A stretch of DNA of 64,000 nt. Origin: Paucibacter sp. KBW04 (lineage in GTDB: Bacteria; Pseudomonadota; Gammaproteobacteria; Burkholderiales; Burkholderiaceae_C). The stretch lies in the NCBI RefSeq assembly GCF_003852425.1, contig NZ_QAJN01000019.1, forward strand, positions 1 to 64,000, written 5' to 3'. The translations under genes and the position numbers were made by a program. Shown one piece after another: positions 1,040-31,433 of this stretch. The notes under the pieces are model-generated. The model worked only from the letters and a program-made list of their open reading frames with translations, was not told the origin of the DNA and made no database searches. Every line of letters starts with the position of its first letter. Position 1 is the stretch's first letter.

Positions 1040-3019
1040 TCACGCCAACATGGCGACCTCATCCGCCTGGAACCAACCCGTTGCCTTGATTGCCGCGGCA
1101 GCCGCACCTGGGTTGGATGCCCACAGCACCAAAGCAAGGCTCTCCTCCGCTCTGCTGCAGGTCACGTAGAGCAGTCGAAGGGTTCTGTCGATGCTGGTCT
1201 CCTTGCCTTCCTCGGCGTTGGTCTTGTCGCTTGAAGAAAGCTCCTTGGCCCCGAAGAGCTTGTCGTACGAGAAGAGGAAGCCGCCGGCCTCGGAGTCGTC
1301 CATGACCACCATCACGTGCGGGAACTCAGAGCCCTTGACCACCTGATGGGTAGCGAGCTCAGCCTCCCCACTCAAGTAGGACTTGTACAGACCAATCTGT
1401 TCCCAAGGCGTCTCGAATAAGTGACTCCAACCGCGCTTTAGCCGGTCCACCCGGTCCTCCTTGGAGACGACTTTGGGAGGGTCCGGTGGTGGCGTTGGGT
1501 CCAGGAACGCATCAGTCAACCGTGCATCTGTATCGAAGACTCCCGCCACGAGCAGGGGCTGAAGGACCTCGCGAACCGTGGCACCAGGCTTCCTCGCCAC
1601 CGCTCCAAACGCGAGCACGGCGTCGTGCAGCTTGGCGAGCTCCGCCCGACGCTCGTCGATGTCCTCCGGTAGCCCCTGCAGGGATTTGGCTGCCCGAAGG
1701 ACGTTCATAACCCGGAACTCGTCGACCTCGCCTAGCTTGTCGAAGCACGCGGAGAGCTCCAGAGCAGGTCCCAGCAGCGGTCTCACCATGGATGGCCCTG
1801 AGCGTTCGCCGTTGCCCTTTGGCGCTGCGGCATCCTCATCCAACAGCTCCATCGCGAAGTACGTTTCGAAGAACCGGCCTCGCTTCGCCGCCAACTTGTG
1901 CTCTAGCGCCAGTGTCTTGAAGCTCCTCACGTCCTCAGACCACGCCACTGCACCCGTCGCCTTCAGCATGACCGCAGCACACTCCCGCTCGCGCTGCACC
2001 TTCGCTTCGGTGTCTTGTTTGGCATCTCCAATGAAGAGCCGAACCAGCCCCGCAGACTTCTCTTCCCGAGGATGCTGAGCGAAGCCAGTCTTGGCCTGAG
2101 TCCGCCCCGCAAGGTCCGCATCCCAAATCGCGTTTATGAGGTCCACCACGCGTTTCTGGCTGCGATGGTTCATCTTCAACGCCGGAAGGGCCCAGCCCTC
2201 TGGGACGTGACTAGGAAGGTCTCGGTGGCCGTCGGCATAGATGCGCTGACGGTGGTCGCCCAGCAGTCCCAAGCTGAATTTCCCTGGCCGAGCTGCTTCC
2301 AACCTGAGGAGTGCATCGAGGATGCCCCGCATCGTGTCCTGCGACTCGTCGATGAGGACGAGCGGGTGCCGCTCCTCTAGGATGCGCTGTAGGGTTGGTC
2401 GGTTGTCGATGAGCCACGCAGCAACGCGCAGGACCGTCGTGTGCGAGAGCGCTCCTGATCCATATGTGTTCTTGTCCGGGTGGTAGATGAACTTCTCCGT
2501 CGCCCGAATCGCGTCCGCTTCCTCAGCAATCTCTCGGTACCTAGCCCGGTCCTTGTCGGTCTCCCCTCGGACCTTCGTCGCAGCTTCTAGCTTGGCCTGC
2601 TTTAGTTCTTCGTCCTTGAGAGCAAGAAGGCCCTCCTGGATATCCGCGTCGAAGCCGTCAATGAGCTCCCAGCAGAACGCGTGGATAGTTGACACAACGG
2701 TCAAGTTGTTCTCGCCAAGCCGGCCGCTCACGACGTTGGTCGCGTTCTTCGTGTACGTGATGACGCGAACCGTTTGACCGTGACTGCGGAGGCGCCTTGC
2801 GAAGACACCACCGGTCTCGTGCGCAACGACGCCAGTGACCCGCCGCAGAACCTCAACAAGCGTCCGCGTCTTTCCCGACCCGGCTCCTGCGAACAGGAAG
2901 AAGCTCCTCGGCGGCTGCCCAGTCACGTAGGCGCAAATCTCCTCCACGACGTGGGCGTCTCGCTCGTTCCCACCGGCAGCGATGCCGACGGCCGCCACTG
3001 CTTCGGCTACGCCGCTCAT
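1040..3019 (-). CDS. UvrD-like helicase, GajB-like
   Basis: A 659-residue superfamily 1 helicase. Motif I is GAGSGKT at about residues 45-51, motif Ib is STIHAFC, motif II is LIDESQD near residue 225, motif III is LGLLGDHRQRIY, and motif VI is LLYVTCSRAEESL near the C-terminus. The start ATG overlaps the stop of the upstream OLD-family nuclease by four bases, so the two are co-translated. A GGGGGAA ribosome-binding site precedes it. In Gabija, GajB is such a helicase and works with GajA in phage defence. This protein is longer than the roughly 500-residue GajB first described, so it may be a divergent branch. The Gabija label is inferred from the pairing; the helicase family is clear. Confidence 0.8.
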   Translation of the reverse strand: MSGVAEAVAAVGIAAGGNERDAHVVEEICAYVTGQPPRSFFLFAGAGSGKTRTLVEVLRRVTGVVAHETGGVFARRLRSHGQTVRVITYTKNATNVVSGRLGENNLTVVSTIHAFCWELIDGFDADIQEGLLALKDEELKQAKLEAATKVRGETDKDRARYREIAEEADAIRATEKFIYHPDKNTYGSGALSHTTVLRVAAWLIDNRPTLQRILEERHPLVLIDESQDTMRGILDALLRLEAARPGKFSLGLLGDHRQRIYADGHRDLPSHVPEGWALPALKMNHRSQKRVVDLINAIWDADLAGRTQAKTGFAQHPREEKSAGLVRLFIGDAKQDTEAKVQRERECAAVMLKATGAVAWSEDVRSFKTLALEHKLAAKRGRFFETYFAMELLDEDAAAPKGNGERSGPSMVRPLLGPALELSACFDKLGEVDEFRVMNVLRAAKSLQGLPEDIDERRAELAKLHDAVLAFGAVARKPGATVREVLQPLLVAGVFDTDARLTDAFLDPTPPPDPPKVVSKEDRVDRLKRGWSHLFETPWEQIGLYKSYLSGEAELATHQVVKGSEFPHVMVVMDDSEAGGFLFSYDKLFGAKELSSSDKTNAEEGKETSIDRTLRLLYVTCSRAEESLALVLWASNPGAAAAAIKATGWFQADEVAMLA

Positions 3020-5370
3020 GGGGTTCCCCCAGCGGTCACGTTAACCTCCGCGCTCAACCACTCCAGCGCATTCTTGATGTACTCGGGGCACTGAAGGACG
3101 GCGCCGCTATTCAGGCGTTCAAACAGCGTGGCAGCAAAGTCGCCCTTGCTGAAGGTTCCGTGCATGAGGTTGTGCAGCGCCTCCAGCAGCTTCACGTGGT
3201 CGGGGTTGTCGACCACAAGCTCCACCACCTTGCTAAGAGCGCCGCGATGCTTCCTCTTCTTCCCTTCGGCGTCGACTTCTTCGTCCAGCTTCTTGAACCA
3301 ATCGATGTTCGCCAAAACGAGCGCGTCCTCGAACGAACTCGGCCACTGGTCGCTCGCGGCCGTCACCGGTAGCTGCCACGCAAAGCGCACCTTGACGCCC
3401 TTCGGCGACGTCCACTCAAGCTGCGCAGCAGTTGGCTTGCCGTAGTCCTTGAAATTCGGCAGGCCCGGATGCCACGAAGTCAGCGTGTCGTTCCCGCACT
3501 CAAGGTCGGCCTGGCCGGCGATATGCACAGCAGTCCGAACCGTCCGGCCCTTCGCGGACTTCGTTTGAATCACAGGGTCAAGGTCCGTGACGATTGCGGT
3601 TGGGATTCCAAGTTTCTCAACGAGCGGCCGGAGCCGATGCGCGTGGCTCCCACCAATGTCTACGAAGGACACATATCGCTTCGCAAGCTTGGGGACGTGC
3701 TGTTCGATGAACAGTGGCACCAACATGCGCTCAGCAGTCCCTTCCACGAAGACCGCGGCGTCCGCGAACAGCAGGTCGGTGTGCTGAACCTGGAAGTACC
3801 GCTCCGCGAAAATTCGAGTCTCCACATCCTTGCCGAACACGTCGCCGAGGTTAACCACCTCGGTGCTTGGCTTTCCGCCGGCGCCGTTGCTCGGCAGCCG
3901 CTTAACGTAGCGAAGACGCGTGAAGCTGTCGCCGTGAGCCAAGTGGCTTGAATGCGTACTGATGAGCAACTGGCTACGCAGATGGGCGTGCACGGCGTCC
4001 TTGGGCTTGATGAGCCCATGTGCGTTGGACGAGAAGTTCCTTGTCACCTGCACGTGAAGGTGAGCCTCCGGCTCTTCCACGATGACCAAGTGGATGGCAG
4101 CTGGCGCTCCCTGCGGCGGATTCAGCCGCGCTGCTCGGAACGATACGAGCATGAAGCTCAAGGATTGCAGATTCTGGTAGCCCAGCCCAATGGAATGCTC
4201 AGGGAGGGACTCATCGAGCACCGACTTGTCGAGTCGGTACTGGACCGCGGTGCTGTGAGCAAGGAGGTCAGCCGTCTGAATTCGAGTCCTAAAGTGGAAC
4301 TGCTGCGGGTCATGAAGCCCGGGGTAGCCAAGAACCTCAACGTCCTCCATCGCCGGCTTCAGCGCCTTGTAAATGAGGTCGTCCAGCTTCGCCTGCGCCT
4401 CCGCTATGGCGGCAACCAGTGCCTCACCGTGCCCAGCCGAACTCGTCGACACGTTCAGATGCTGTCGAGCGAACTTGAGCAGTTGGCTTGAGAACATGCC
4501 GGGGCGAGAGCTTGGCGTCTCTGACCTGGCTTCATCTTCCTCGGCCCCGAGTCCCCGCTGAGCCGCGACGAAGTCGACGCGAATCAGCTTACGCAGGTGG
4601 GCCAGTTCCACCGGTTCCGAGCCTGCCGGGAGAACTTGAGGCGATGACTCCCCCTTTGTCGCCAGGGGTCCCTCCGCTGGGTCCAGGCGGTAGGCGCATA
4701 CCTTTCGCAGGTCCGAGGGATGCCGCAACCAGTAGTCGATGATGTCCTCAGGCCAGGCGTGGCCCTTCTGGGGCAAGTCCTTCACCGGATGACGCGCCTC
4801 GCGGAAGGTCCACGCCAGCTTGCGAAGCTCTTCAATGTTGGAGACGGGCTCAAGCCGAAGTCGCACGCCAACGGCGCCGCCCTCCCACTTCAACGACGTG
4901 ATGAACGGAGCCACGTAGCTGTACGCACCTTCCTTGGCGTCGAACCACAGGTCCGCGAATGGCATGCAGCTGAGCAACTGCTCCAACTGGTCCACCCATA
5001 CCTCCGCGTCCTTCGTCTCAGTGGTTGGGTCCTCCGCCAGGCCTTCCCAAGCCTTGCTCAGCTCCCGGAGCTTGGACCATTGCGAGAGACTTAGGTCATA
5101 GGGCCGGAAGCCGGACTGGTCGCTCAGAAAGTTGCGAAGCACCGTCAGCAGCGAGGTCTTGCCGCTATTGTTGGCGCCGACCAGAACCGTTGTGGTCTCA
5201 TCCAGGTCCAGGCGCGTGCTGGACAACCGCCGGAAGTTGCACACCTCCACACAGGCCAGTCGAATAGGTGGTGTAGCGAAGGGCGCAGTGGCTGCGGGCG
5301 CGTCGTCATTGGATGGTGCTGCCGCCGGCACTGCGTCAACTGCGGCGGAGGAAATCGTGTGAGTAATCAT
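3016..5370 (-). CDS. OLD-family ATP-dependent endonuclease, GajA-like
   Basis: A 784-residue AAA ATPase/TOPRIM protein. From the ATG at 5370, Walker A (GANNSGKTS) is at about residues 65-73. The Walker B region reads IVEEPEAHLH near residue 420, typical of ABC-type ATPases of the OLD/RecF class. A TOPRIM domain follows at about 535-620, with acidic motifs FVEGTAE and VTDLDP. The frame also extends upstream to a TTG at 5439, but that adds only 23 residues with no domain, so I prefer the ATG, although its ribosome-binding site is weak. Together with the overlapping UvrD-like helicase it forms a Gabija-type pair in which GajA is the nuclease. An Ala/Pro-rich N-terminal extension precedes the ATPase. 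Stand-alone class 2 OLD function is the main alternative. Confidence 0.8.
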   Translation of the reverse strand: MITHTISSAAVDAVPAAAPSNDDAPAATAPFATPPIRLACVEVCNFRRLSSTRLDLDETTTVLVGANNSGKTSLLTVLRNFLSDQSGFRPYDLSLSQWSKLRELSKAWEGLAEDPTTETKDAEVWVDQLEQLLSCMPFADLWFDAKEGAYSYVAPFITSLKWEGGAVGVRLRLEPVSNIEELRKLAWTFREARHPVKDLPQKGHAWPEDIIDYWLRHPSDLRKVCAYRLDPAEGPLATKGESSPQVLPAGSEPVELAHLRKLIRVDFVAAQRGLGAEEDEARSETPSSRPGMFSSQLLKFARQHLNVSTSSAGHGEALVAAIAEAQAKLDDLIYKALKPAMEDVEVLGYPGLHDPQQFHFRTRIQTADLLAHSTAVQYRLDKSVLDESLPEHSIGLGYQNLQSLSFMLVSFRAARLNPPQGAPAAIHLVIVEEPEAHLHVQVTRNFSSNAHGLIKPKDAVHAHLRSQLLISTHSSHLAHGDSFTRLRYVKRLPSNGAGGKPSTEVVNLGDVFGKDVETRIFAERYFQVQHTDLLFADAAVFVEGTAERMLVPLFIEQHVPKLAKRYVSFVDIGGSHAHRLRPLVEKLGIPTAIVTDLDPVIQTKSAKGRTVRTAVHIAGQADLECGNDTLTSWHPGLPNFKDYGKPTAAQLEWTSPKGVKVRFAWQLPVTAASDQWPSSFEDALVLANIDWFKKLDEEVDAEGKKRKHRGALSKVVELVVDNPDHVKLLEALHNLMHGTFSKGDFAATLFERLNSGAVLQCPEYIKNALEWLSAEVNVTAGGTP

Positions 5371-5750
5371 CTGCTTGAGCTTTTGTTTCGCCAGAAGGCG
5401 AGTGTCACAAATTGAGGTGCGACGGCGTGGCAAACTCAAGCTCTAGCTCAGGTCTCCGCTCCGCAACTCTCCCCTTTCTGATTCATAACGGATTTCAGAC
5501 CAGAAACCCGACATCCGGGCGGCATACGGAACAAAAGTTGACCAAACAGGCAGCTCGCACAGAGCGCTCGCAGGAGAGCTGGTCTTGCCGGCCAGCCGAA
5601 GGTGCGAGAGTCCACGAGGCGCGAGGGTCAGGCCTCAAATCTCAAGGCCCGATGTAATCCGCGACGACGTTCTTGCTGGCCAGCGAACGGTTGCTCCGTG
5701 CGCATTGAAGACTTACGAATGCCGAGTCCGAGCGGGTGCACCTAGCCAAA
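5371..5750. other. Upstream region of Gabija-like operon
   Basis: This gap holds the 5' side of the leftward nuclease/helicase operon and must contain its promoter. I could not pick a confident -35/-10 pair, operator or terminator. No coding frame here has recognisable similarity. It ends where similarity to an IS110-type transposase begins. Confidence 0.4.
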
Positions 5751-5754
5751 TGCA

Positions 5755-6450
5755 GAAGTTGGCCGGAATTCAGCTTTGCAGCGATTGCTGTCGTTCACAT
5801 CGCAGAGCTCGAAGCCTGCAAGCGGTCGTTCAACGTCTGCGCTCATTGGACGGTGAAGCCGTTCGCTGCAGCCAGTCGCTGCACATCGTCTGCGAGGCCA
5901 GCCCCCGCGGCTACGTCATCCAGTGCCACCTCTGCGCCCAGGGCCTGCTCTGCGATGTGGTCCCACCGTCCAGCATCGCTCACGCAATTGGCGAGCGCAT
6001 CAAGACCGACCGGCGCGATGCCATGCTTCTTGCTCGGTTCGCCCGCTCGGGCGACTTGTCTGTGGTGCGCGTGCGGATACGGCCGACGAGTCTGTGCGCG
6101 ACCTGGTGTGTGCCCGCGAGGATGCCGTGCTCGAGCAGTGCAGCGGGCGCCGCCGACTGAAGGCTCTGCTGCAGCGCAACGGCGTGGCCTACGCCGGCAA
6201 TGCCTCATGGACGGTGGCGCATTTGCGCTGGCTGGGCGGTGCATCAAGCTCACGCATTCGACACAGTAGATCGCCTTCCAGGAGTACCTGCAGGCCAGCA
6301 CGCAAGCTGGCGAGCGCATCGCCCGGCTTGAGCAGGCGCTGAGCGCACGCCGGGTCGACAAGACAAAGGCGGTGGTGCGCGAGCTGGCCGGATCCGCATG
6401 GGCCATCGGGGCGCGCGAGGTGCAATTCTCAGGCTGGGCGGGCCTGAAGC
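5755..6450 (+). pseudogene. IS110-type transposase remnant, frameshifted
   Basis: Pieces of one IS110-family transposase lie in order in three frames. ERIKTDRRDAMLLARFARSGDL is at about 5990-6077. ESVRDLVCAREDA and LKALLQRNGVAYAG follow at about 6080-6240. IAFQEYLQAS and ERIARLEQAL are at about 6268-6345, preceded by a TAG at 6267 where family members usually have Gln. The KTDRRDA segment holds part of the DEDD active site. At least two frameshifts and one nonsense codon inactivate the gene, and the C-terminal serine-containing part is degraded beyond about 6430. No terminal repeats are visible. Family assignment is from motif recall. Confidence 0.7.
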
Positions 6451-6653
6451 CGTAAGCGGCGTGACGGAGTAGCTCCGACAAGCCACATGACCAACGAGGT
6501 GAAATACCAGCATCTGCACCGTCAGCGCACGGCGGGCCCATCGGATCCTGATAAGGTTGCTGCACTGGTGGCCTAAACTGCGCATCGCCTGCAGCAGGCG
6601 AGAATTTGGCACATGAGGCGTGCGCATGAACGCTCGCACAAGAGGAGGAGTAC

Positions 6654-9600
6654 ATGGGTTGGCTCACTGTGGCGATGAGGTCCGCGGGAACCGTCCTGAG
6701 CGCAGCGTTGCCGTTCTTCAAGCAGAGGTTTGCGGAGCGTGCGGCTGGAGACGCTCCGGGGGATGTCCCGGCTTCCATCACTGACGATCTGATGGACGGG
6801 GCGCTGCTGCGCCTGGGCGAGTTGAAACCCGATGACCCGCTGTGGAAGCGTAGCCTAGTCAGACTGGAAGGGGCGCTCGTTCGCCCGGACCTGTTCAACA
6901 TGCCCAGTGTGCGCGAGTGGCTCAGTCGCCCTCAGGTTCGCGAGGGGATTAAGCGCGCTGCAGAGACTGCGATCGCCCGCGGCACCGTGCCCCAGGATCT
7001 GATCAATCGGCTGGCTGATGAGTATGCGGACTCCACAGGAGATGATCGCCGATTTGCGGATCAAGCTATCCGCATCGCCGTCGCCTCCCTTCAGGCCAGC
7101 GTTCAAGCCTTCGCACGAGATCAGGGCACCGCGGCCATCGTCCAGGCGACGACGTCCGAGCTTGGTCGAAAAATCGACAGCGGCTTCGCCGACGCGGCTC
7201 GGGATAGAGCGCTCGCCGACAACCCGTTCATCTCGGAGCGCTTCACGCAGGACGGTCGTGACGAGCTCAACAGAATCCTTCGCAGGCGGGCAACGCGGGG
7301 GGCGAAAACCGCACAAGAGTTGAGGGGCCTCATCCGCGACTTCGAACCGGGCGGACGGTTTGCAGCCGCAGCACCCTCGCTTCAGAACGACGCCACGTTC
7401 TGGCTTGCGCGGATGGAGGCAGCAGCCGGCGATGGAGAAACTGCCGCCGGCCGGTTTGTCACCTTGGAACAGCGCGGGTACACGGTTCCACCCGCCGCGT
7501 GGGCGTTGGCCGACCTGGCGACCGGGGATACCCAGGCTGCGCTGCGACGCGTCCGCGATCTGACCGATGCCGAAAGTCAGACGGCGATCTTTCACATTCT
7601 CATGAGGTCGCAGGGGAAAGCAGCCGCCCTTCAGTACGTCGATGACCTTGGCGAGCTGACTCCAGGCTCCTTCACCATTATCGGTTGGAACAACGTTTGC
7701 CTCATCCTTCAAGAGGAAGGACGCATCGCCGATAGCGCTGCACTTCTGGCGCGCCTTCCGGAGTCCGTGCTCAGCCAGTGCACGAACCTCTACTACATGT
7801 ACGCGGTCAGCCAGTTGCTGCCGATGCTCCCGGTCGACAGGTATTCGGCACTCAAGAGCAACGGCTTCTATGCAGTCACGGAACCCGTGCTGGATAACCC
7901 GCAGTCATCCGTGGCTCGGACGAGAGCCCTTGAAGCGGCTGAGTTGGCCAGGCAGTGTGCAACTGATGCGCGAGACGCCTTGATCGCCGAGCAGTGCGTG
8001 AAGGGGATTCACTGCCTGCGCTTGCAGGATCCACGAACGCGGGACCAGGAGATTGCATCGATCCAGGAAGCGATGAAGGACGGCGAAGCAGCGGTACATC
8101 TCATCGGGCTCGCTCGGGCCTGTAGTATCGAATTTGACCCCCAGCCACTCGAGCGCCATCTGGACCGCGCGCAAATGATGGGCGGACTCAGCGAGCTGCA
8201 GCTACGCGCGAAGATGAACCTGCTGGCCACTCCCAACCGAAGCGGCGATCTCGTCAGGTTCCTGGACGAGTCCTGGGACAGTCTCCTGCCCGACAGCAGC
8301 ATTGAAACCCTTGTCATCATGAAGGTCCAGGCGCTCGGCAACAACAAGGACTTCGACGGCGCAACAGCGTTCCTTGACGCCTACGCCGACCGGGTCGAGG
8401 CCGCCACGCTGTCCCGGCTTCAGCTGATGTTGCAGGACGAACGTGGCGGGGATCCGAGCGACGCGGCAGCGCAACTTTTCCGCCAGTCCGATTCGATCGT
8501 GGACCTGCACAACTTGGTGCGCGTGCTCGTTGGCCGAAACCGCTGGAAGCGGCTGAAGCCATACGCTGAGCAGCTCTTCCAGAGAGAGCCCAACTATGAC
8601 AACGCCATGCTGCAGCTCAACTGCCTGCAGCGCACGCGGGCCAGCGCGAAGGAAATCTGCGCCTTTCTTGAGAGGACGATTGATCTGGTTGAGCAACGCG
8701 CCGAGATCCGATCAGCGCGGGCCTGGGCTCTGTTCAGGGTCGGCAAGCATCTGGAGGCCAAGCGCCTCAACGACGAATTGCTCGTCGAGCGCGACGCCAC
8801 CAACGATCTGGCACTGGATGTCAACATCGCGATCCGCACGGGGGACTGGGAACGCTTTGCTGCGATTGGCGCTCGAGGATGGGAGCGCCGTGCCCAGCTT
8901 GATGGGCGAATGCTACTGATGCTCGCGAGGCTGGTTGGCTTCTCGGATCCCGCTCAGTCGCTCACCCTCGCGCAAGAGGCGGTGGCAAAAGAAGGCGACG
9001 ATCCGGCGATTCTCGTTGGCGCGAACGCCATCGCGATCGCCGCCCGGAGAGACGACTTGGCCATGCCCTGGGTGCACAAAGCTGCCGAGCTTTCCAAAGA
9101 TGACGGGCCTGTGTCGGTCTTCTCCTTTAGTGAGATGGTCGAGTTCATGAGGAGGAACGCAGAGAGCTGGAGGGAGAAGAACGAGTTGTACCGCACGGGG
9201 CAGGTGCCGCTGCACCTGGCGGCGTCGCTGTTCAACGCTGCCTTCTCGCAACTGCTCATTGCTCAGCCGAGGCAGAACGCGCGAGAGGTTGACCCGAGGC
9301 GCCGCCATCCCGTCCCGATCCGTTCTGGTCAGCGAGCCGCTGCTGGGGGTCATGAGTACTCTCGTGTCTCACTCGATGTCACCGCGCTGTTTGTGCTGAG
9401 TGAACTGGGAAAGCTCGAGGCCGTTCTTGATTCGCTTGATGAGGTGTTCGTCTCACCGAGAGTGATGGACGTGCTGCTCGAGGACCGCGGGCGGGTCGCA
9501 TTTCATCAACCATCCAGGATCGCCGAAGTGAAGCCGCTGAGCGCATGGGTTGCGTCGGGTCGGCTGAAGGTCATCGATGCCAAGGCCAGCGTAGGCCTGG

Positions 9601-10913
9601 CGGACGAGGTCGGCGAGGAAGCAGCCGTCTTGTTGGCGGAGGCACAGACCCATGCGGGAATGTTCATCCATCCCGGCCCGCTCTTCAAGGTTGCCTCGTA
9701 CATGGACAAGGAAGCGGCTCTGGGCGAGCTGCAGACGCGGTTCGCCGATCCCGTCGATGTTATCAGCGCCCTTCTCGCGGAGGGCCTCCTGACACAGGCA
9801 GAAGGCGATGACGCGACGACGTTGTTGCAGCGCATCGGGATGGCCGCACGCCAGGCGGTGCAACCTTCCTCGCCCTTGTATCTCGACGGCCTCGCCGTCC
9901 AGTACCTGCAGCAAGCCAAGCTGCTTCAACCGCTGCTCAACTCGGGGCACGTTGTGTATGTCCACAAGAGCACGGTTGACGAGTGGCAGGCCCTGCTCGC
10001 CACCGAGCCGATGACGGAGGAGCTGATCCAGGCTCTCGACGCCCTCAGAAGAACGGTTCGAGCTGGTCTGATGTCCGGGAAGGTGAAGTTTCTCGCTGAG
10101 AGTGTTAGACGCAGCGAATTGAACGCGATCACCATGCTGCCGATGGTCGATCTGCTCGATGACATCGCGGGCATCGACGCGGTTGTGCTTGACGATCGCA
10201 TGCTCGGGAGCAACCACAGCCTCACCGATGCAATGGGTAAGGCCGTTCCGGTTCTATCGAGCCTGGACATGTTGGGCATGCTGGTGCACAAGGGATCGAT
10301 GACCGAAGCTTCTCAGCGCGAGTCGCTTCATCTCCTTCGCACCCGGTGCTACTTCTGCATTCCGATCGATCCAGGCGAGGTGTGCCACTACCTAGGCCAA
10401 GCCTCCGTGGAGGATGGAAAGCTGAAGGAGACGGCCCAGCTTCGTGTCATCAGACAGTATCTTGCTCGCCTGAACGCGACGGACGTCCTGTGTACGGCGG
10501 CGGACCTCAGCTACCAGCACTCGCTCTGGCGAGCCTCCAGTGTGGTCATCGGCATGCTGTGGATGGATTCAGCCACATCAATTGTCGATGCCGAAGCCAG
10601 GTCCGACTGGGTTGTCGCCTACCTTCTTCCGAACCCTGAACTTGTCATGCGGTTCACACAGGGCGAGGCAGATCGGATAGCCGAAGTCGTCGCCTCGCAG
10701 CTGACGGTCTCGTTGATGCCTGTTGGCGGGGACGCCGCACGACGCAAGGCCTACGCCAATTGGTTGGAGCGCGCCCGCCTGTCAACTCTCCTGCCGGCCA
10801 ACTCGCGCGTGCTGGACCTGGCAGCCGAGCAGGCCGCGGAATTGTTGATCAGGCGAGCCTCGGAGATTGCAGATGAAATTAGAAGCAGAAGTAGCGCGGA
10901 TCCAACTGAATAG
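6654..10913 (+). CDS. Large helical-repeat protein with tandem PIN-like domains
   Basis: A 1419-residue protein with a strong ribosome-binding site (AGAGGAGGAG) just upstream. The N-terminal 230 residues are helical and unrecognised. Residues about 240-870 look like TPR-type helical repeats. Two PIN-like nuclease folds follow. The first, from Asp908 (LDVTAL), seems degenerate, because the third acidic cluster is replaced by MFIHPGPL. The second keeps Asp1078 (LDGLA), Glu1110 (TVDEW) and Asp1180-Asp1181 (VVLDDR), the expected metal-binding set. About 230 helical residues end the protein. The layout recalls families described as PIN-TPR-GreABC, though I see no clear GreA/B-like C-terminus. It overlaps the next gene by 41 bases, so they form one operon. 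RNA or tRNA cleavage in stress or phage defence is plausible but inferred. Confidence 0.6.
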   Translation: MGWLTVAMRSAGTVLSAALPFFKQRFAERAAGDAPGDVPASITDDLMDGALLRLGELKPDDPLWKRSLVRLEGALVRPDLFNMPSVREWLSRPQVREGIKRAAETAIARGTVPQDLINRLADEYADSTGDDRRFADQAIRIAVASLQASVQAFARDQGTAAIVQATTSELGRKIDSGFADAARDRALADNPFISERFTQDGRDELNRILRRRATRGAKTAQELRGLIRDFEPGGRFAAAAPSLQNDATFWLARMEAAAGDGETAAGRFVTLEQRGYTVPPAAWALADLATGDTQAALRRVRDLTDAESQTAIFHILMRSQGKAAALQYVDDLGELTPGSFTIIGWNNVCLILQEEGRIADSAALLARLPESVLSQCTNLYYMYAVSQLLPMLPVDRYSALKSNGFYAVTEPVLDNPQSSVARTRALEAAELARQCATDARDALIAEQCVKGIHCLRLQDPRTRDQEIASIQEAMKDGEAAVHLIGLARACSIEFDPQPLERHLDRAQMMGGLSELQLRAKMNLLATPNRSGDLVRFLDESWDSLLPDSSIETLVIMKVQALGNNKDFDGATAFLDAYADRVEAATLSRLQLMLQDERGGDPSDAAAQLFRQSDSIVDLHNLVRVLVGRNRWKRLKPYAEQLFQREPNYDNAMLQLNCLQRTRASAKEICAFLERTIDLVEQRAEIRSARAWALFRVGKHLEAKRLNDELLVERDATNDLALDVNIAIRTGDWERFAAIGARGWERRAQLDGRMLLMLARLVGFSDPAQSLTLAQEAVAKEGDDPAILVGANAIAIAARRDDLAMPWVHKAAELSKDDGPVSVFSFSEMVEFMRRNAESWREKNELYRTGQVPLHLAASLFNAAFSQLLIAQPRQNAREVDPRRRHPVPIRSGQRAAAGGHEYSRVSLDVTALFVLSELGKLEAVLDSLDEVFVSPRVMDVLLEDRGRVAFHQPSRIAEVKPLSAWVASGRLKVIDAKASVGLADEVGEEAAVLLAEAQTHAGMFIHPGPLFKVASYMDKEAALGELQTRFADPVDVISALLAEGLLTQAEGDDATTLLQRIGMAARQAVQPSSPLYLDGLAVQYLQQAKLLQPLLNSGHVVYVHKSTVDEWQALLATEPMTEELIQALDALRRTVRAGLMSGKVKFLAESVRRSELNAITMLPMVDLLDDIAGIDAVVLDDRMLGSNHSLTDAMGKAVPVLSSLDMLGMLVHKGSMTEASQRESLHLLRTRCYFCIPIDPGEVCHYLGQASVEDGKLKETAQLRVIRQYLARLNATDVLCTAADLSYQHSLWRASSVVIGMLWMDSATSIVDAEARSDWVVAYLLPNPELVMRFTQGEADRIAEVVASQLTVSLMPVGGDAARRKAYANWLERARLSTLLPANSRVLDLAAEQAAELLIRRASEIADEIRSRSSADPTE

Positions 10914-12759
10914 CCTGCCACCGCTGATAGCGGAGCGGCTGTTGATGCGGCGTGACGTTGCTTCGCTGGTCGAAGCGGGTTCTGCATCGATCAGAGATAT
11001 CGGTCAGTTCAGGTATGCCGATATCCGAGATGTCCTGGCAACGGCGCCGCTTGGCAGCTTCGTGGACGTATCTGGTGCAGTTGGCGCTGGGCTCTCGATC
11101 GCCCGGTCATCCGACGCATTGATCCGGGTCCGCGGGCAGACGGGTAAAGAGAAGATCCTGCCGGAGTTGTCGCTGCTCGATCCTTCGCAGGAGATTCGAC
11201 TGGAAGGCATCAGGCTTCTGTCAGAGAGGGCACAACCCCACTGGCCGCGCCGCTTGAGCTGGCGCCAGAAAGCATCCGATTCGCCGCTCGCCGACAGCGA
11301 ATTCGGGTTGTTGCTCGATGAGCTGCAGAACATTGCAGAGCCGGTCATCGGCGAGATCGGGCAGAAGCTGGAAAATGCAGGTTTTGGCGCAAAGGACCTT
11401 GTTCCTACGAACACGACCTACTACGAGTCGATCCTTGGGGGGATACCGTGGACGATCGGCGTTGACGAGTACATTGCCGACACTCTCATGCCGCACCTAA
11501 CTGCCATGTTTAGTAGGAATCCCACATGGGGTTTAAGGTGCATGCAGGCCAGCTGTGTCTCGGAAAGAGTCGACCCGGTGCCATTGACGGCCTCGGTTTC
11601 GAACGACGATCTTCTGTCTGCCATCAATTCCATCGGCCATGGCCAGACGCCGTTCGCCGTGCTTGCGACCTACAAGCTGGCGTCCTCCCGCGCCTCCGGC
11701 GACGAGCGATTCGCAAAAGTCGCCCAGGCCGCCCTGCAGCAGCTCTTCGATCGCACCACCACAGGCGATGATCCCAGAGGCCTCGATGAGCTGCTGATTG
11801 CGCTTGTGAAACTGACGCTGAGCATCATGGGCCAGGCGGAGCAGCTAGCACTTGCACCTGTGTTCTGGCGTCGGCTCGTGGCATTTGCCCATCCGACCCT
11901 CCTTCTGGAGTCGATGAACATCTCCGAAGATGATGTGAGAGACCTTGCTGACTGGATCGCAGCACGCCTCACGCGTGAGAGTGCGGCAGTTGAGATCCTT
12001 GATGAGCTCGCGGAGCCTGGATGGCGTACTGATTCCCTCCATGGCCAGGAACTCTGGGCAACAGCGCTGCTTCGCGGCCTGCAGTTCTCCTCAGCAAGTT
12101 CCGCATCGGCGGTCTTGTCGCCCGCCCAGCTGAAACTGGCTGAGTCGCACCTCGTGCATGTCGCGGGCTTGCCGGACCCGCTGAGCGGTGCCAGGCGAGA
12201 CTGGGCAGCCGTCACGACCAATACGCTTGACGCGGATCTGCTCAAGAATATGGACGCCGCGAACCCCGATGGATCCGCAGCTGAACCTATCCGTGTCTGG
12301 AGCGCACTCGTGCACCACGCGCAGATCTACCGCTTTGGCGAAGACCTTTTGGCGCGGATCCGCGACCGGCTCAACAGCTCGATGCCCGCAGCGGGCACAA
12401 ACCTCTCTGAGGACCATGAGACGCTGGTTCTTTGCTGCAACCTCGCGTCGACTCAGGGCGACATCGACCTGGCTGCGATCGTGGCCGCACGGGCCATAGA
12501 GGCCGGCGAGAGCTCCACCGATCCAGCCAGCGCGTCGCTGGCAGCTTACATCGTGATCCTGGCCGCCGGCGCAGCCAAAGACAAGCCTGCCAGTTTGGAG
12601 TGGGCTGCCGAAAGGCTGCTGCAGCTGGCATATCGCCTGCCCCACGGCGCACCCTGCGCAGCTTTTGCAGCGACCATCACGATGTTCCAGCGACTCATTC
12701 CGTTCCAAGAACGGCGTTGGGCCAAGGCGTTGGTTGTTGCCAGTTCGGCCGCTACTTGA
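10873..12759 (+). CDS. Helical protein of unknown function, PIN-protein partner
   Basis: A 628-residue, mostly alpha-helical, Ala/Leu-rich cytosolic protein with no signal peptide or membrane segment. The frame can begin at a TTG (10867), but the ATG at 10873 is preferred because a CGGAG element sits just upstream. The start lies inside the end of the PIN-domain gene (41-base overlap), which implies translational coupling and joint function. I recognise no catalytic motif. The N-terminal part has IRLEGIRLLSER and the segment around IPWTIGVDEYIADTL. The C-terminal half looks like irregular helical repeats. A regulatory, scaffold or antidote role for the nuclease is possible. I do not know the family. 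Confidence 0.55.
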   Translation: MKLEAEVARIQLNSLPPLIAERLLMRRDVASLVEAGSASIRDIGQFRYADIRDVLATAPLGSFVDVSGAVGAGLSIARSSDALIRVRGQTGKEKILPELSLLDPSQEIRLEGIRLLSERAQPHWPRRLSWRQKASDSPLADSEFGLLLDELQNIAEPVIGEIGQKLENAGFGAKDLVPTNTTYYESILGGIPWTIGVDEYIADTLMPHLTAMFSRNPTWGLRCMQASCVSERVDPVPLTASVSNDDLLSAINSIGHGQTPFAVLATYKLASSRASGDERFAKVAQAALQQLFDRTTTGDDPRGLDELLIALVKLTLSIMGQAEQLALAPVFWRRLVAFAHPTLLLESMNISEDDVRDLADWIAARLTRESAAVEILDELAEPGWRTDSLHGQELWATALLRGLQFSSASSASAVLSPAQLKLAESHLVHVAGLPDPLSGARRDWAAVTTNTLDADLLKNMDAANPDGSAAEPIRVWSALVHHAQIYRFGEDLLARIRDRLNSSMPAAGTNLSEDHETLVLCCNLASTQGDIDLAAIVAARAIEAGESSTDPASASLAAYIVILAAGAAKDKPASLEWAAERLLQLAYRLPHGAPCAAFAATITMFQRLIPFQERRWAKALVVASSAAT

Positions 12760-13080
12760 GCGTTCGTTGCCCCTCTGCCGGCTTCCGCTCGCATGAGCGG
12801 GCGTCAGTATCCGGACATCGGGCAAGTACCAGTCCAAGTCCGCTTGCTAGAAAGTGGGCCAGGTGAATTGCAGCCTCTCAGTAGATCCCGTGATGAAGAA
12901 TAGTGAGGCCCTGCCCTGGCCATCGCGACGCGGCCGGGGGGCGGTGGTCGAGGATCTCCCTCAGCCGATCCAAATCGGGTGGTACTCCCCGTTGGCCTTG
13001 ACCCAATCGTTCATGCTGGTCTCGCTAGCCTAGACGAATCTGCCCCGGCGTTTGGCGGGCAGTTGACCTAATATTCAGGC
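12760..13080. other. Non-coding debris
   Basis: No intact gene is visible. On the minus strand around 12970-13035 a short frame reads MNDWVKANGEYHPIW, which may be a leftover of another mobile or conserved gene, but it is broken at once by a stop. I cannot assign it. The stretch separates the PIN-protein operon from the integrase relic. Confidence 0.3.
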
Positions 13081-13254
13081 CGTCACTCTGTCACCTCACT
13101 GCGAGGTGTCTGCACCGTACAGGAACTGCTCGGACACGTCGATGGGGCGACGACCATGACCTACACCCCTTGGCTCAGGATGGGCTGCGGTGCCGTGCGC
13201 AGCCCCTTGGACTCTCTGCCTGGGACTGGAGAGCCGCAAAGCAGTCGCTGGTGA
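13081..13254 (+). pseudogene. intI: Integron-type integrase, C-terminal relic
   Basis: An open frame of 57 codons ends at the TGA 13252-13254. It encodes RHS, then [14 protein letters not shown] and AVRSPLDSL in the right order and spacing for the C-terminus of integron (IntI/XerC-like) tyrosine recombinases. It keeps the HxxR-box start, the late His (LGH) and the presumed nucleophilic Tyr (MTYT). Residues between RHS and the LLGH block are shortened. A stop lies just upstream in frame, and nothing resembling the N-terminal two thirds is present. It is a dead fragment and points to a past integron or integron-like element nearby. Confidence 0.65.
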
Positions 13255-13604
13255 AATACCGCAATCAGCCTTGAGCCGACTTCGCATTGCCGAACGGCTG
13301 TAGTGCAGCGGGAGCGGTCGCTGCGTCTCGCTAGGTCTCAGACAGGTTCGTTGCACCTACCGGCCATTCCTTTGACAACTTGTCCCTAAGTTCGTCGGCT
13401 ATCCTCGGATCAAAGGTAAACAACTATTGGGACCTGCCGGTTCATCCAATGTCGTCGAGCGTTCGTCTGGGCCGTTTAGAGGGGGTGGCCAGGTTCTTGT
13501 TCGCTGCATGGCAAATCAATGCAGTGATGAACGGCGGCGGCGGCATTGTTCCGGCATTAGAGTGCGCCTAGGAGGCCGTTCAGCGTCAAGGGATATGCGA
13601 GTGC
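13255..13604. other. Non-coding stretch after integrase relic
   Basis: I find no supported gene. A 63-codon plus-strand frame with a TTG start (13380-13571) has a protein-like composition in its second half, but matches nothing I recognise. It could be a gene-cassette remnant. The end of hxsA, on the opposite strand, closes the stretch. No clear terminator hairpin with a T-run was seen. Confidence 0.3.
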
Positions 13605-14378
13605 TCAGTTCACCGTCGGCACACCCAGGGCGTTCAGCGTATCTGTGAGCATCAGGCCCGTCGGACGCAAGCCTTTGACGATCTGGAAATGCTTCACAGC
13701 TTCCTGCGTCTCCGCGTTGAACACGCCATCAATCTGCCCCTCGTAGAGCCCCATCCGCTTGAGCGCAAGTTGCACACGGAGCACTTGCAAGCGAAGCTTC
13801 TCGGCGCGCTTCAACTCTGGCGTAGCGCCCTCTGGCTTCGGTGACACGCCCGGTGCGTACAGCACCTGCGCCGGCGCGCGGGAAGGCGAAGTTCTCACGC
13901 CGGACGTCGTCCCACTTAGCGGGGGAGCTTGATTCGCATCAAGCGTCAGCGGGACCCGGACGTGCTCGCCCGAAGTGGGCTGCGAAGTGTCTTGCGAGGA
14001 GAGTGGTTGCGCGGACAAAGGGAGCGAGCGCGCAGGCGCCGGTGCTGCGGGCTGCGCGTAGGTCGGCGCAGGAGCCGGAGCCGGAGTCAGGTTCAGTACC
14101 GGCGCGGATGCCGGCGGTGCTGGCGCTGGAGGGACGTAACGGCTGCTGCCGCTGCTTCCTGAGTAGTGAGAGCTATGGCTCGAATGTGACCGATGGCTTG
14201 AATGGGATCGGTGTGCCGCGAAGAGGTTGTCAATGTCCGAGTTCAGCGGCCTCAGCGACACCGGCTTCAGGTCATCGCTGGTCGGCGTGGTTGGGGCAGG
14301 GGCCGCCACCGAAGGCTTCAGGCCGAGCAGCGGAGCGCCTGCCAAGAACAGGGTTAATGTGCGCAGGAACTTAGACAT
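13605..14378 (-). CDS. hxsA: His-Xaa-Ser repeat protein HxsA
   Basis: A 257-residue exported protein. A signal-peptide-like N-terminus (about residues 1-26, ending SVAA) is followed by a tract near residues 56-73 of His-Xaa-Ser triplets (HRSHSSHRSHSSHSSHYS). A long Pro/Ala-rich linker comes next, and a C-terminal peptidoglycan-binding domain covers about 195-255 (LKRMGLYEGQIDGVF, then TQEAVKHFQ). The HxS tract is the presumed substrate of the two radical SAM maturases encoded upstream. The start codon overlaps the end of hxsC by eight bases. The protein probably acts at the cell wall, but the modification and function of this system are not established. Confidence 0.85.
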   Translation of the reverse strand: MSKFLRTLTLFLAGAPLLGLKPSVAAPAPTTPTSDDLKPVSLRPLNSDIDNLFAAHRSHSSHRSHSSHSSHYSGSSGSSRYVPPAPAPPASAPVLNLTPAPAPAPTYAQPAAPAPARSLPLSAQPLSSQDTSQPTSGEHVRVPLTLDANQAPPLSGTTSGVRTSPSRAPAQVLYAPGVSPKPEGATPELKRAEKLRLQVLRVQLALKRMGLYEGQIDGVFNAETQEAVKHFQIVKGLRPTGLMLTDTLNALGVPTVN

Positions 14379-15456
14379 GTTTGGCTCGCAGTATTGGTGT
14401 GACGCGGGTCCTGTGAAGGGAGCTCTTGTCCCAGGTGAAGAAGCCGCTGCATCTGGGCTTCAGCTGGCAGAGTTCGCATTCGGGGGCGAACTCGTTCTTC
14501 CAATCGGAAATGCTTGCCGCGGCGAAGGGGCGGAGCTGCGCAGGGAGCTTACAGAGCGGCAGGTTCATTAGCACAGGTGTGAGGCCATGAAGTCGCAGAG
14601 TCGCTACCGCCGCGCGGATCTCGTCCACCCGCTCGGACGGGTCAACTAGGCACATCTCCGCGTTGGCCAGCGCAAAGCCGATGGGCTCTGTGCCCATGAG
14701 CGCCACCGTTTGCACGAACGGCAGGTTCTTCGCGATGAACTCGCAGAGCGCGGGAAGCTGGTCCAGGACAGGCTGGATGAGCACCGTCCTTACTTGGATT
14801 GACTGACTGTGCGCTTGCAGGTTGAGCAAGCCGCCAATGGTCTGGTCGAACGCGCACGGCGCCTGGACCACGAAGTCGTGCAGCTCATCAGCCCCCCCAT
14901 ACAGAGGCACCAACCAGGTCGTCCGGCCCGGACGAAGCCCCTCGAGCAAGGCTGCTGCTACACCCGCCTCGCCAAGCTGCCTGGCGTTGGTGAGCACCTC
15001 CACGGTCGTAACCGGCCAGCTTGCATGCGCGAAGTCCAATAGTTCGCGCAGCTTCGCCGCATGGAGAGTCGGCTCCCCTCCCGTCACGCCTACTACCCGC
15101 GGCGGGCACTCGATAAGTGAGATGGTCTCCATCGCCTCGCGGAACAGCCAGCTGTCATCCTGGCGCGTTGGCGGCTGCGAGCACATCAGGCATCGGCTGT
15201 TGCACTGGTTCGTGACGAAGAGCGTGTGGTGCGTATCCGCAGCGCGGTACGCCACGATGACGCGGCTCAGCCCTTCAGAGAGCCGAACCACATCCTGCGG
15301 CACAAGGCAGGCCGAGCCATCAAGCTGACAAACAATGCTGCGCTGAGGCTCGCCTCCTAACGAGCTGCTGGTCAACGTCACCAAGCGCCCCGCGAGGCTG
15401 GACACCTTGAAAATGCCTGACGTCGGCGATGGCGACGCGAGAAGAACCTCCCTCAT
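14371..15456 (-). CDS. hxsC: His-Xaa-Ser system radical SAM maturase HxsC
   Basis: A 361-residue radical SAM enzyme. The [4Fe-4S] motif is CNSRCLMC (CxxxCxxC) near residue 87, preceded by HHTLFVTNQ. GVTGGEPTLH follows as the glycine-rich SAM-contact segment. A C-terminal cysteine group (CELCQLKPRC) could hold an auxiliary cluster. The start overlaps the stop of hxsB (ATGA) and the end overlaps hxsA, so the genes form a tight operon in the order B-C-A. Like its relatives it should modify the HxS repeats of HxsA by radical chemistry. The product is unknown. Confidence 0.85.
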   Translation of the reverse strand: MREVLLASPSPTSGIFKVSSLAGRLVTLTSSSLGGEPQRSIVCQLDGSACLVPQDVVRLSEGLSRVIVAYRAADTHHTLFVTNQCNSRCLMCSQPPTRQDDSWLFREAMETISLIECPPRVVGVTGGEPTLHAAKLRELLDFAHASWPVTTVEVLTNARQLGEAGVAAALLEGLRPGRTTWLVPLYGGADELHDFVVQAPCAFDQTIGGLLNLQAHSQSIQVRTVLIQPVLDQLPALCEFIAKNLPFVQTVALMGTEPIGFALANAEMCLVDPSERVDEIRAAVATLRLHGLTPVLMNLPLCKLPAQLRPFAAASISDWKNEFAPECELCQLKPRCSGFFTWDKSSLHRTRVTPILRAKHV

Positions 15457-16922
15457 GACGCGCCCGCCATGCTGTTGGGTTGCGCCCAGCGAGCAAGAAG
15501 GTCCGCCGTTTGCGTATCGCCCCGCCCTTCAACATCACCAAGCCGGTTCAGCCAGAAATCGAACATGGCGGTCTGGCGCCGACAGTGCTCGGTCTCGCGG
15601 GTAGGCGCTGCGTGGCCGCCTTGCGCGAGGGCTGCGGCATCAACGGGGCTCGGGGCGCAGTGGCTCTTGAACGCGCATGCACTACAGTCCGGGTCGCCGG
15701 AGGCGTCTCCCTGGTCGGCAATCCTGGAGGACACATCGCAGCTGAGCAGCGCCTCCAATGGCGTGCCGATGGCGCCCATGCGGAAGCTCGTATCGCCTGT
15801 CTCCGCAAGCATCCTTGCCTCGTCACTCGGATACACCCAGCCATCGTAGTTGTAGACCAGCACCGCACGCCCGGAGGCATTGGGACTTTGCAGGTCGACG
15901 TAGCCGGCATCAAAGCTGGAGATGAGCTTGTTGAGGATCAATCCTGCGTAGGCCTCGCGGATGGCGACGCCCTGACCGTTCCACCAGAGGACCCGATCCA
16001 CAGCCCGCTTGTAGAAGCGCATGAAGTCCTGCGTCGAGTAGCCGAGGTAGGCCAGATTCCGCTTGGCGAACCCGTATGGACTGAGCGGGCGGATGAACAC
16101 ATCCTGCAGGCCAAGAGCGACATACTCATCCACGATGGCCTCTGCATACTCAATGCTATGGTGCGTCGTTGTCATCAACGCCGACACCGAGTCCGGGCCC
16201 AAAGCAGCCCGCGCCAGCTCAATGCCCTGAAGAGTTCGGGCATACGAATCCCGGGTCGGCAACGGCCTGTTCTTGTTGTGCAGCCAAGCCGGTCCGTCGA
16301 TGCTGGTCGACAGCTTCACGTCATACTGCCTTAAGTAGCTGCACATCTGGCCGGTCAGTTGGTGCAGCGTCGACGCGATGACGAATCGGATGGCTCTACC
16401 TTGGCGCGCCGGATGGTGTGCAAGTGCTTCAATGGCCAGCTGGATCAGGTCGAACCGGTTAAGCGGATCGCCGCCCTGAAACTCGACGGTCAGGGTCTCA
16501 GCGGCGCTGGCCATGATGGTGTCGCAGGCGGCCAGCATCTCGTTTTGCGACATCGAGAAGCCTTGCGCGTCAAGGGCCCGGCTCACCTGGCAATACTGAC
16601 AGCTGTGCGCGCACTGGAGGGTCGGCACCAGGATGTGCAGGGCGGGAGGCCCGGCAGCGGTGGCCGCCTTCTCGGCCAGACGGGATGCGTAGAGTCTATC
16701 CAGTCCTGGGGTCGACGCCGAGCTCGTCAGAAAGTGCTTGGCTTTGAGGCACTGGCGGAGGTCGCCGTCGACCTCTTCGGGAGCGGTGCGGAGCAGCTCG
16801 AGTATCTGGGCGTCTAGGAAGGCGACCTCGCCAACCGGGGACAGGCACGCCCAGCGACCGCCTTCGAGGCGGCGCGTCTCAAATGGACGGACCTTTGCTT
16901 GATAAACCGTCCCTACGCTCAC
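15453..16922 (-). CDS. hxsB: His-Xaa-Ser system radical SAM maturase HxsB
   Basis: A 489-residue radical SAM protein. The cluster motif is CAHSCQYC (CxxxCxxC) at about residues 103-110, in the context LVPTLQ. FQGGDPLNRFDL follows as the SAM-binding stretch. A C-terminal SPASM-like cysteine group is present (CSACAFKSHC, then a later Cys in TEHC). Translation starts at GTG 16922, preceded by GGGGAG at good spacing. In known loci a small HxsD gene usually sits upstream. I searched the minus strand up to 17332 and found no frame with the HxsD signature, so this locus may lack it or keep it elsewhere. Confidence 0.85.
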   Translation of the reverse strand: MSVGTVYQAKVRPFETRRLEGGRWACLSPVGEVAFLDAQILELLRTAPEEVDGDLRQCLKAKHFLTSSASTPGLDRLYASRLAEKAATAAGPPALHILVPTLQCAHSCQYCQVSRALDAQGFSMSQNEMLAACDTIMASAAETLTVEFQGGDPLNRFDLIQLAIEALAHHPARQGRAIRFVIASTLHQLTGQMCSYLRQYDVKLSTSIDGPAWLHNKNRPLPTRDSYARTLQGIELARAALGPDSVSALMTTTHHSIEYAEAIVDEYVALGLQDVFIRPLSPYGFAKRNLAYLGYSTQDFMRFYKRAVDRVLWWNGQGVAIREAYAGLILNKLISSFDAGYVDLQSPNASGRAVLVYNYDGWVYPSDEARMLAETGDTSFRMGAIGTPLEALLSCDVSSRIADQGDASGDPDCSACAFKSHCAPSPVDAAALAQGGHAAPTRETEHCRRQTAMFDFWLNRLGDVEGRGDTQTADLLARWAQPNSMAGAS

Positions 16923-17563: not shown

Positions 17564-18780
17564 GGTGCGACTCCGTTGATGATGTGCCCTTGAATCTACG
17601 CAACATTGGGGTCAATGTTTGCGATGACTTCGATCAGTAAATCATCTCTTCATCTCCGACCTGGTATGAACGTCGGTAAGGCTGTGGGTCATGGTCGTTA
17701 GCGGAGTGCTCGGGTTTCAAAACGCGGCCCTTCCCGAGCCAGAGGAGAGGCGAGCGCTGTTTCATTCACGCTTTGCGTGAACGCGCTCGCCTGCCGAACA
17801 GGCCTGTGGCCAGATCGGCACCTCTGGCTCCCGCCACGCCCGAAGCCGGGCCGCTCGCGACGCTGTGCGTCGCTTGGTTCCTTGCGCGCATTGCGGTTGA
17901 TTTGGGGGCTTCGATTGGGGTGGAATTTGGTAGCTTCAAGTCCGTCTCCTGCGCGCCAGTGCGTGGGCATTTGATTGGCTTCGGGGGCTGAAGTGAACTT
18001 CGGTAGCTTTGGGTTGAGTGCGTCTGGCCAAATGTGCCAGCGTGTCTACGTTGACAGGCTCTCCTTGCACGCTGTGGCTTGTTTTTGCGGTGCAGTGGGA
18101 CCAACTCAAGTTGCTCAGTTCAAGGGGCTAGGCTGGGGGTTGTTAAGTCGCTTAACTATCTGGTCGGTCACAAGGTGAGTCCAATCTGCCGGGTGATCTC
18201 CTTGAGTGCAGTCTTGAGCTTTTTGTGATGGCCACTTTCGGCTTGTTGGGCCGCTCAACGCTTTCTCGGCCGAAGCCTAGGCGCTTGGCTGGCGTGGCTG
18301 ACTCGTGGAACTGTTGCTGGTTAGCAGTTGAGGCCGCGGGGAGCTAGAGGCAGCATCTCTTTCGGCTGAATCGGGCCATGACAGTTTCGCTCTTGGTGCG
18401 GACTCTGTTCGGATACGGTTCAGTTGTGGTTCGGTTGTGGTTCACTTGTGAGTCGCTTAGTTGCCGGTCTCTGTTCACTCTCTGTGCTTTGTATGCGGCA
18501 GAGCTTGTCTTTGTGGAACCTGAAAACTGGTGAGTTTTGGTGAGTGCAGAGATAGGCGCGGTGGCGTAGTTGTCAGACAAATGGCGCGCGCGAAACTTTT
18601 AGCTCAAACAAGCAATGCGTTCATTTGTCGCCAGCGCAATCCAGGCAGGGCAGCCGGGAAATCCCTCTGCCATAAAACACGGCCAGTGAGTAACTCGACT
18701 TGCCAACAAGGTATCGTTACGAAAATTGTTGGCTGATCGACGTCACTGAGGCGGCGACAGACCGGCAAAGGGAGTCGGCC
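17564..18780. other. 1.2-kb non-coding, palindrome-rich region
   Basis: No gene can be supported in this long gap between the AlpA regulator and the TerB operon. It contains a nested set of inverted repeats (17736-17830), a 7-bp hairpin with a TGT loop (17857-17873), and the palindrome GTTAAG-TCG-CTTAAC (18142-18156). There is also a run of related G/T-rich words around 18406-18455 (GGTTCAGTTGTGGTTCGG and similar). The promoter of the downstream operon must lie in its right part. An unannotated structured RNA is possible. Confidence 0.4.
17736..17830. repeat. Nested inverted repeats
   Basis: The outer arms are GAGCCAGAGG (17736-17745) and CCTCTGGCTC (17821-17830), a perfect 10-bp pair. Inside them, GGCGAGCGC (17749-17757) pairs with GCGCTCGCC (17783-17791). 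Innermost, TTCACGC (17765-17771) pairs with GCGTGAA (17775-17781) across a TTT loop. The symmetry suggests a folded RNA, a recombination site or a cruciform. There is no T-run, so it is not a simple terminator. Confidence 0.7.
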
Positions 18781-22574: not shown

Positions 22575-22587
22575 TTGCGATCTCTAG

Positions 22588-31421: not shown

Positions 31422-31433
31422 TAGGAACGAACT

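Follow-up and report, generated by a model that had tools for sequence, protein, structure and literature searches.

A two-gene, double-PIN locus of Paucibacter sp. KBW04 as a probable split variant of the TPR-GreA/B-C-PIN conflict system

The DNA considered here, referred to as the window, comprises 64,000 nucleotides of Paucibacter sp. KBW04 (RefSeq assembly GCF_003852425.1, contig NZ_QAJN01000019.1, positions 1 to 64,000 of the forward strand). It carries a pair of overlapping genes with the Gabija defence system immediately to their left and the Shango system some 6 kb to their right. Gene 1 encodes, from the N- to the C-terminus, an N-terminal module, a helical arm, an HTH domain, two PIN domains (PIN1 and PIN2) and a helical C-terminus; its partner, gene 2, encodes a small beta-rich domain and a long helical region. 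The pair is very probably a divergent, two-gene form, with a doubled PIN domain, of the TPR-GreA/B-C-PIN conflict system that was predicted computationally by Kaur, Iyer, Burroughs and Aravind (eLife 2021, PMC8195603), and sequence comparison points with good confidence to a role against invaders.

The coordinates of the pair and of its surroundings are collected in Table 1. Both open reading frames (ORFs) were confirmed at the positions and lengths given by an earlier, sequence-only reading of this DNA, although the mechanical ORF list starts gene 2 at a TTG six bases upstream, which gives 630 amino acids. The promoter scan of the locus found none, shuffled sequences averaging 1.3, and five terminator-like sites were observed against 5.2 in shuffles.

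Table 1. Position and basis of the features of the gene pair and its neighbourhood (window coordinates; aa, amino acids)
Feature	Position	Strand	Basis and details
Shine-Dalgarno-like GA-rich stretch upstream of gene 1	6642..6649	+	read by eye
Gene 1	6654..10913	+	ATG-start ORF, 1419 aa; Pfam, family alignment, model of aa 821-1419
N-terminal variable module, ~aa 1-200	6654..7253	+	family comparison; no Pfam match
Helical-repeat (TPR-like) arm, ~aa 201-820	7254..9113	+	weak TPR/ANAPC3 matches in relatives
HTH_upst_double_PIN (PF24407), aa 825-894	9126..9335	+	Pfam 2e-21
PIN1, ~aa 898-1062	9345..9839	+	family alignment, model, PF20698 match below cut-off
PIN2 (PF20698), aa 1076-1183	9879..10202	+	Pfam 6e-18, conservation; D1078, E1110, D1175, D1180, D1181, R1182
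Gene 2	10873..12759	+	ATG-start ORF, 628 aa; overlaps gene 1 by 41 bases
Small beta-rich domain of gene 2, aa 37-95	10981..11157	+	AlphaFold2 model
All-helical remainder of gene 2, aa 97-628	11161..12756	+	AlphaFold2 model
GajB (Gabija)	1040-3019	-	PADLOC 1.6e-210
GajA (Gabija)	3016-5439	-	PADLOC 1.3e-238
IS110-type transposase remnant between Gabija and the pair	~5870-6075	+	PF01548 1.7e-4, weak, below cut-off
Peptidoglycan-binding protein and two radical SAM proteins, consecutive	13605-16922	-	one just under the Pfam cut-off
Shango SngA, SngB, SngC	18700-24825	+	PADLOC 1.9e-108, 4.5e-183, 1.4e-272
C39-peptidase ABC transporter, HlyD-like protein, glycosyltransferase, then 3444-aa ORF (31434-41768)	25896-41768	+	

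Pfam already holds models for the HTH, PIN and permuted GreA/B-C domains of such systems, and the names of these models suggest that its curators are aware of a double-PIN form. In the gene 1 protein, PF20698 (PIN-TPR-GreABC) is matched over two stretches, with 65.8 bits against a cut-off of 27.8. The PIN1 region by itself matches the same model at 5.8e-5, under the curated cut-off, as do at <=0.1 33 of the 39 PIN1 regions scanned in the family, so that both PIN domains of the sequence-only reading are borne out. In the predicted model of residues 821-1419 the HTH comes first, and strands and helices alternate in each of the two units after it. The repeats of the earlier reading fared less well: no TPR model in Pfam matches the window protein, and relatives give weak, sub-cut-off TPR or ANAPC3 matches. 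NCBIfam and PADLOC models yielded chance-level matches alone for the two window proteins (best 0.017 and 0.016).

The partner had been described as a protein with no recognised domain. Its family is nevertheless recognisable, since 34 of the 40 gene 2 family sequences scanned, the window's not among them, match Permuted_GreAB-C (PF24388) at <=0.1. The same model is matched by the gene that follows gene 1 in Agrobacterium and Methylophaga plasmid copies. The AlphaFold2 model of the window protein (38-sequence input; predicted local distance difference test, pLDDT, 85.6; predicted template modelling score, pTM, 0.86) places its only beta-rich domain at about the position that PF24388 occupies in homologues (residues 46-98 in locus L007 and 49-99 in L008). 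Moreover, a profile of 38 other partners, from which the window and its nearest relative, Achromobacter marplatensis (L027), were excluded, recovers the window's partner with an E-value of 1.7e-30, the match covering residues 7-610.

The archetype of Kaur et al. (PMC8195603), found through EAD10 and mostly encoded by a stand-alone gene, is a single chain with TPR, GreA/B-C and PIN in that order, for which 13 alternative effector domains, including restriction endonuclease (REase), HNH and phosphorylase, were listed. These authors predicted that a hijacked RNA polymerase is targeted and its transcript cut by the PIN domain, the N-terminal effector serving as a fallback. The window pair shares with this system the PF20698 PIN, a partner family of the GreA/B-C type and a variable N-terminal effector, but differs from the archetype in its HTH, its two PIN domains and its two genes. 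In its family, furthermore, the permuted GreA/B-C domain lies downstream of the PIN domains, either on a separate gene or at the C-terminal end. The pair is filed as a variant, and not as the archetype, because of its two genes, its double PIN and this downstream position. A two-gene double-PIN form is not described in the portions of the text of Kaur et al. that were available (PMC8195603). The kind of system as such, which the sequence-only reading took for poorly described, had thus already been predicted and has its Pfam models.

The link between the two genes was followed over 48 loci: 37 from one genome scan, the window, six plasmid loci and five further genome loci, less one duplicate contig. 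The scan loci span Pseudomonadota, Bacillota, Cyanobacteriota, Acidobacteriota, Bacteroidota and Myxococcota, among others. A gene 2 homologue adjoins gene 1 in 34 of the 48, and mechanically called ORFs overlap in 31 of these 34 adjacent pairs, the pair of L049 being visibly broken. In six loci gene 2 is detectably fused to gene 1, and in six more gene 1 is a single chain with a tail of 671-680 amino acids. When the partner profile was compared with these six tails, that of L009 matched weakly (5.9e-5) and those of L010-L012, L025 and L026 gave no match at E 10; the six are therefore termed long chains and not proven fusions. The L009 chain itself (6736-13386 on a Leptolyngbya boryana plasmid; 2216 amino acids) has a caspase and the HTH over cut-off, and PF20698 just under it. 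Gene 2 was not found in two of the 48 loci, both truncated, which leaves 46 with the genes side by side or in a single chain. On the tree, the one-chain or split state needs five changes. That a single chain recurs in this way is the strongest sign in these data that both proteins would act as one machine.

The tight overlap of the two genes would also suit a giant toxin-antitoxin or stress module, in which gene 1 would be a VapC-like ribonuclease, gene 2 its inhibitor, and host RNA under stress, not phage, the target; PIN domains are indeed best known from VapC toxins (PMC13092281). This explanation is rather improbable: the partner is of scaffold size, it is fused to the PIN protein in six loci and perhaps in six more, and both the exchange of N-terminal effectors and the Gabija and Shango flanks look immune-like. 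Precedents for PIN domains in defence exist in the DefensePredictor systems DS-3 and DS-5 (PMC13092281), in which the PIN catalytic residues are required for phage protection. DS-5 resembles the window pair as a PIN defence system of two proteins, both required, and is likely not a toxin-antitoxin; its partner, compared by description only, differs in having DUF5830 and an AcrIF4-like domain. DS-3 differs in being one protein, with the PIN divided between its two ends.

The acidic positions of the tandem PIN domains, the putative nuclease of this variant, were compared in 46 sequences. In PIN2, D1181 is present in all 46, D1180 and R1182 in 45 each, D1078 in 38 and E1110 in 36. In PIN1, D908 is kept in 41 (the remaining five having E), E944 in 42, E1020 in 43 and D1022 in 42. 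Complete acid sets were counted in 42 of 46 sequences for PIN1 and in 29 of 46 for PIN2, a comparison that favours PIN1 because its set (D908, E944, E1019/E1020, D1022) was chosen from conserved columns with D or E accepted, the catalytic role of these columns being an assumption. The window PIN2 has D1078, E1110, D1180 and D1181, as the sequence-only reading had claimed, while its PIN1 is degraded: at the acid positions of the family it reads D, D, K/E and A, K1019 and A1022 standing in place of the usual E and D. The same reading had taken the first PIN to be inactive. This agrees with the window copy but not with the family at large, which keeps the PIN1 acids, and a first domain inactive beside a complete second one is therefore no family rule. 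The two domains resemble each other weakly when compared directly (hhalign probability 29, E 6e-4), so that the case for their duplication rests on both matching PF20698.

Composite PIN active sites do exist: in SMG5-SMG6 two paralogous PIN domains together complete a single active site (PMC12923823), although these belong to two proteins and to nonsense-mediated mRNA decay, and they serve here as a model of how a PIN pair might function. By analogy, and with the PIN1 acids kept in most of the family, an immune complex riding on RNA polymerase through its GreA-like subunit might cut RNA with a composite PIN1-PIN2 site, in which PIN1 acids would complete the near-invariant DDR of PIN2. As a complete scheme, this is a doubtful proposal.

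The helical arm and the C-terminal half of gene 1 are common to the family, while the first residues differ. Modules identified there by Pfam are a caspase (L009), HNH (L060), SMEK (L035), a phosphorylase (L039), a calcineurin-like phosphoesterase (L055) and a DUF676 esterase (L007), further HNH and DUF676 rows having been assigned by BLAST to these Pfam-identified members; the N-terminus of L008 resembles, by eye alone, a two-helix membrane segment. With four of the 46 rows unlabelled, the fourteen N-terminal labels need 18 changes on the tree, where the minimum possible is 13. The window module is common to L027 (48% identity) and perhaps to L061 (25%), and matched no plasmid at E 0.01. By a judgement of length, and not by a Pfam scan, 10 of the 42 typed rows have no room for such a module; since about a quarter of the typed relatives seem to be module-less in this sense, the PIN core should be able to work without it.

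These modules raise the possibility that the weapon is the exchangeable N-terminal effector (in the window, a module that would recruit or form something) and that the PIN domains, contributing little catalysis, act as a sensor or scaffold. Many relatives do carry recognisable effector enzymes at this end, the first Asp of PIN2 is lost in 8 of 46 sequences, L027 included, and the full PIN2 set is far from universal. The idea is still unlikely, given the proteins with no room for any module and the retention of D1180, D1181 and the PIN1 acid set in nearly all sequences.

The distribution of the split double-PIN system is that of an accessory element. Carriers are 1 of 18 genomes of the genus, 6 of 369 of the class and 4 of 398 of the phylum (the genome of the window being counted in each), PF24407 has no match in 14 well-known control genomes, and plasmid-borne copies exist. 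Among viral contigs searched for close relatives, four pattern matches and no relatives were obtained. Housekeeping proteins, too, contain GreA/B-C and PIN domains, and a housekeeping factor for RNA processing or transcription quality would thus be conceivable; it was rejected as very improbable on account of this patchy distribution, to which the variable N-terminus and the plasmid copies add. The earlier reading finds support in the conserved pairing, the patchy distribution and the defence-island setting, and homologues do not turn up predominantly in housekeeping neighbourhoods that lack the partner.

Phylogenetically, the window and L027 stand apart together on a deep branch, the placement of the long-branched L024, L025, L026 and L008 being uncertain. 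Between these two, dN (nonsynonymous divergence) is about 0.34 for gene 1 and about 0.50 for gene 2, with saturated dS (synonymous divergence) values of 4.1 and 3.0, and both genes look to be under purifying selection. Three congeners (L013, L014 and L015) carry other PF20698 proteins instead, over cut-off and with one match per genome. These single-PIN proteins share the model and the genus with the window, but differ in giving no phmmer match at E <=0.001 to either window protein. The N-termini of those of L013 and L015 look nuclease-like by eye.

As to mechanism, it is proposed that both gene products form one complex, in which subunit 2 would bind the secondary channel of RNA polymerase through its small beta domain, the one that resembles GreA/B-C in relatives; the single-gene proposal of Kaur et al. 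(PMC8195603) is followed in this. The two helical arms may sense an invader-specific state, with phage as a possible trigger. The tandem PIN domains would then cut RNA, probably the transcript, while the exchangeable N-terminal module would be a back-up or recruitment effector and cell death a possible outcome. What the computation shows is the pairing and fusion of the genes, their domain families, the signs of purifying selection, the exchange of N-termini, the patchy occurrence and the neighbouring defence systems. The functional steps are all inferred, and docking on RNA polymerase with RNA cleavage can be put forward only tentatively; the reading as a whole, that of a two-subunit anti-invader system of the split double-PIN type working by this mechanism, is on balance somewhat favoured. 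If it is right, bacteria would possess modular immunity that keeps watch over transcription, and what Kaur et al. predicted in 2021, a PIN system linked to RNA polymerase, would become directly testable, since the two-gene form allows its GreA-like and nuclease halves to be produced and assayed separately. The contribution of the optional N-terminal effectors to a core that seemingly occurs alone would also come to light, as would any sharing of an active site by tandem PIN domains as in SMG5-SMG6.

Several results weigh against this reading. The window PIN1 is short of two family-conserved acids, and L027, with a whole PIN1, has N at 1078 in PIN2: these losses weaken the simple view that PIN2 is the nuclease, although the contrast between a degraded PIN1 with a whole PIN2 and the converse comes from one single pair. 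Across the family there was no sign of coupled loss of the two acid sets (Fisher p 0.62). Searches of PDB sequences with profiles of PIN2, PIN1 and the gene 2 beta domain listed neither a PIN nor a GreA relative with an E-value of 1 or lower. Strands and helices alternate at residues 1070-1185 in the gene 1 model, yet Foldseek with the whole multi-domain model found weak matches only and nothing in the PDB at E <=0.001, which leaves the PIN fold structurally unconfirmed. The whole gene 2 model likewise gave nothing at E <=0.001, its matches being weak and mostly to helical repeats, so that structural confirmation of a GreA/B-C fold is lacking for the window protein; nor has this protein any Pfam match, PF24388 included. 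Among the papers listed by searches of the open-licence literature, there were no experiments on this family and no text on the two-gene form. Finally, the neighbour comparison speaks for the reading, with 128 defence-model matches at 1e-20 (PADLOC) among 112 neighbour proteins of relatives against 32 among 112 control proteins, but it counts models and not distinct proteins, leaves out the neighbours of L058-L063 and draws its controls from genomes of the same genus, family, order and class as the window, in other species than the test loci. A few defence-type matches also appear in the control, among the matches listed, and the excess near relatives is supporting evidence only.

In the window itself, the Gabija neighbour recognised by the sequence-only reading is real, and Shango SngABC is an addition at the other end. 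As for the integrase relics of that reading, the nameable upstream relic is a weak match to an IS110-type transposase, and no search for integrase relics was made elsewhere. Between the pair and Shango, the row made up of two radical SAM proteins and one that binds peptidoglycan may be concerned with peptide modification, and the cluster to the right of Shango resembles an export operon with a giant protein. In a relative, L083 on the Agrobacterium fabrum plasmid pAtN33_94 (4000-45000), the pair sits, by annotation, with an integrase, two VapBC pairs, an HsdR-N protein and a SIR2/AAA cluster.

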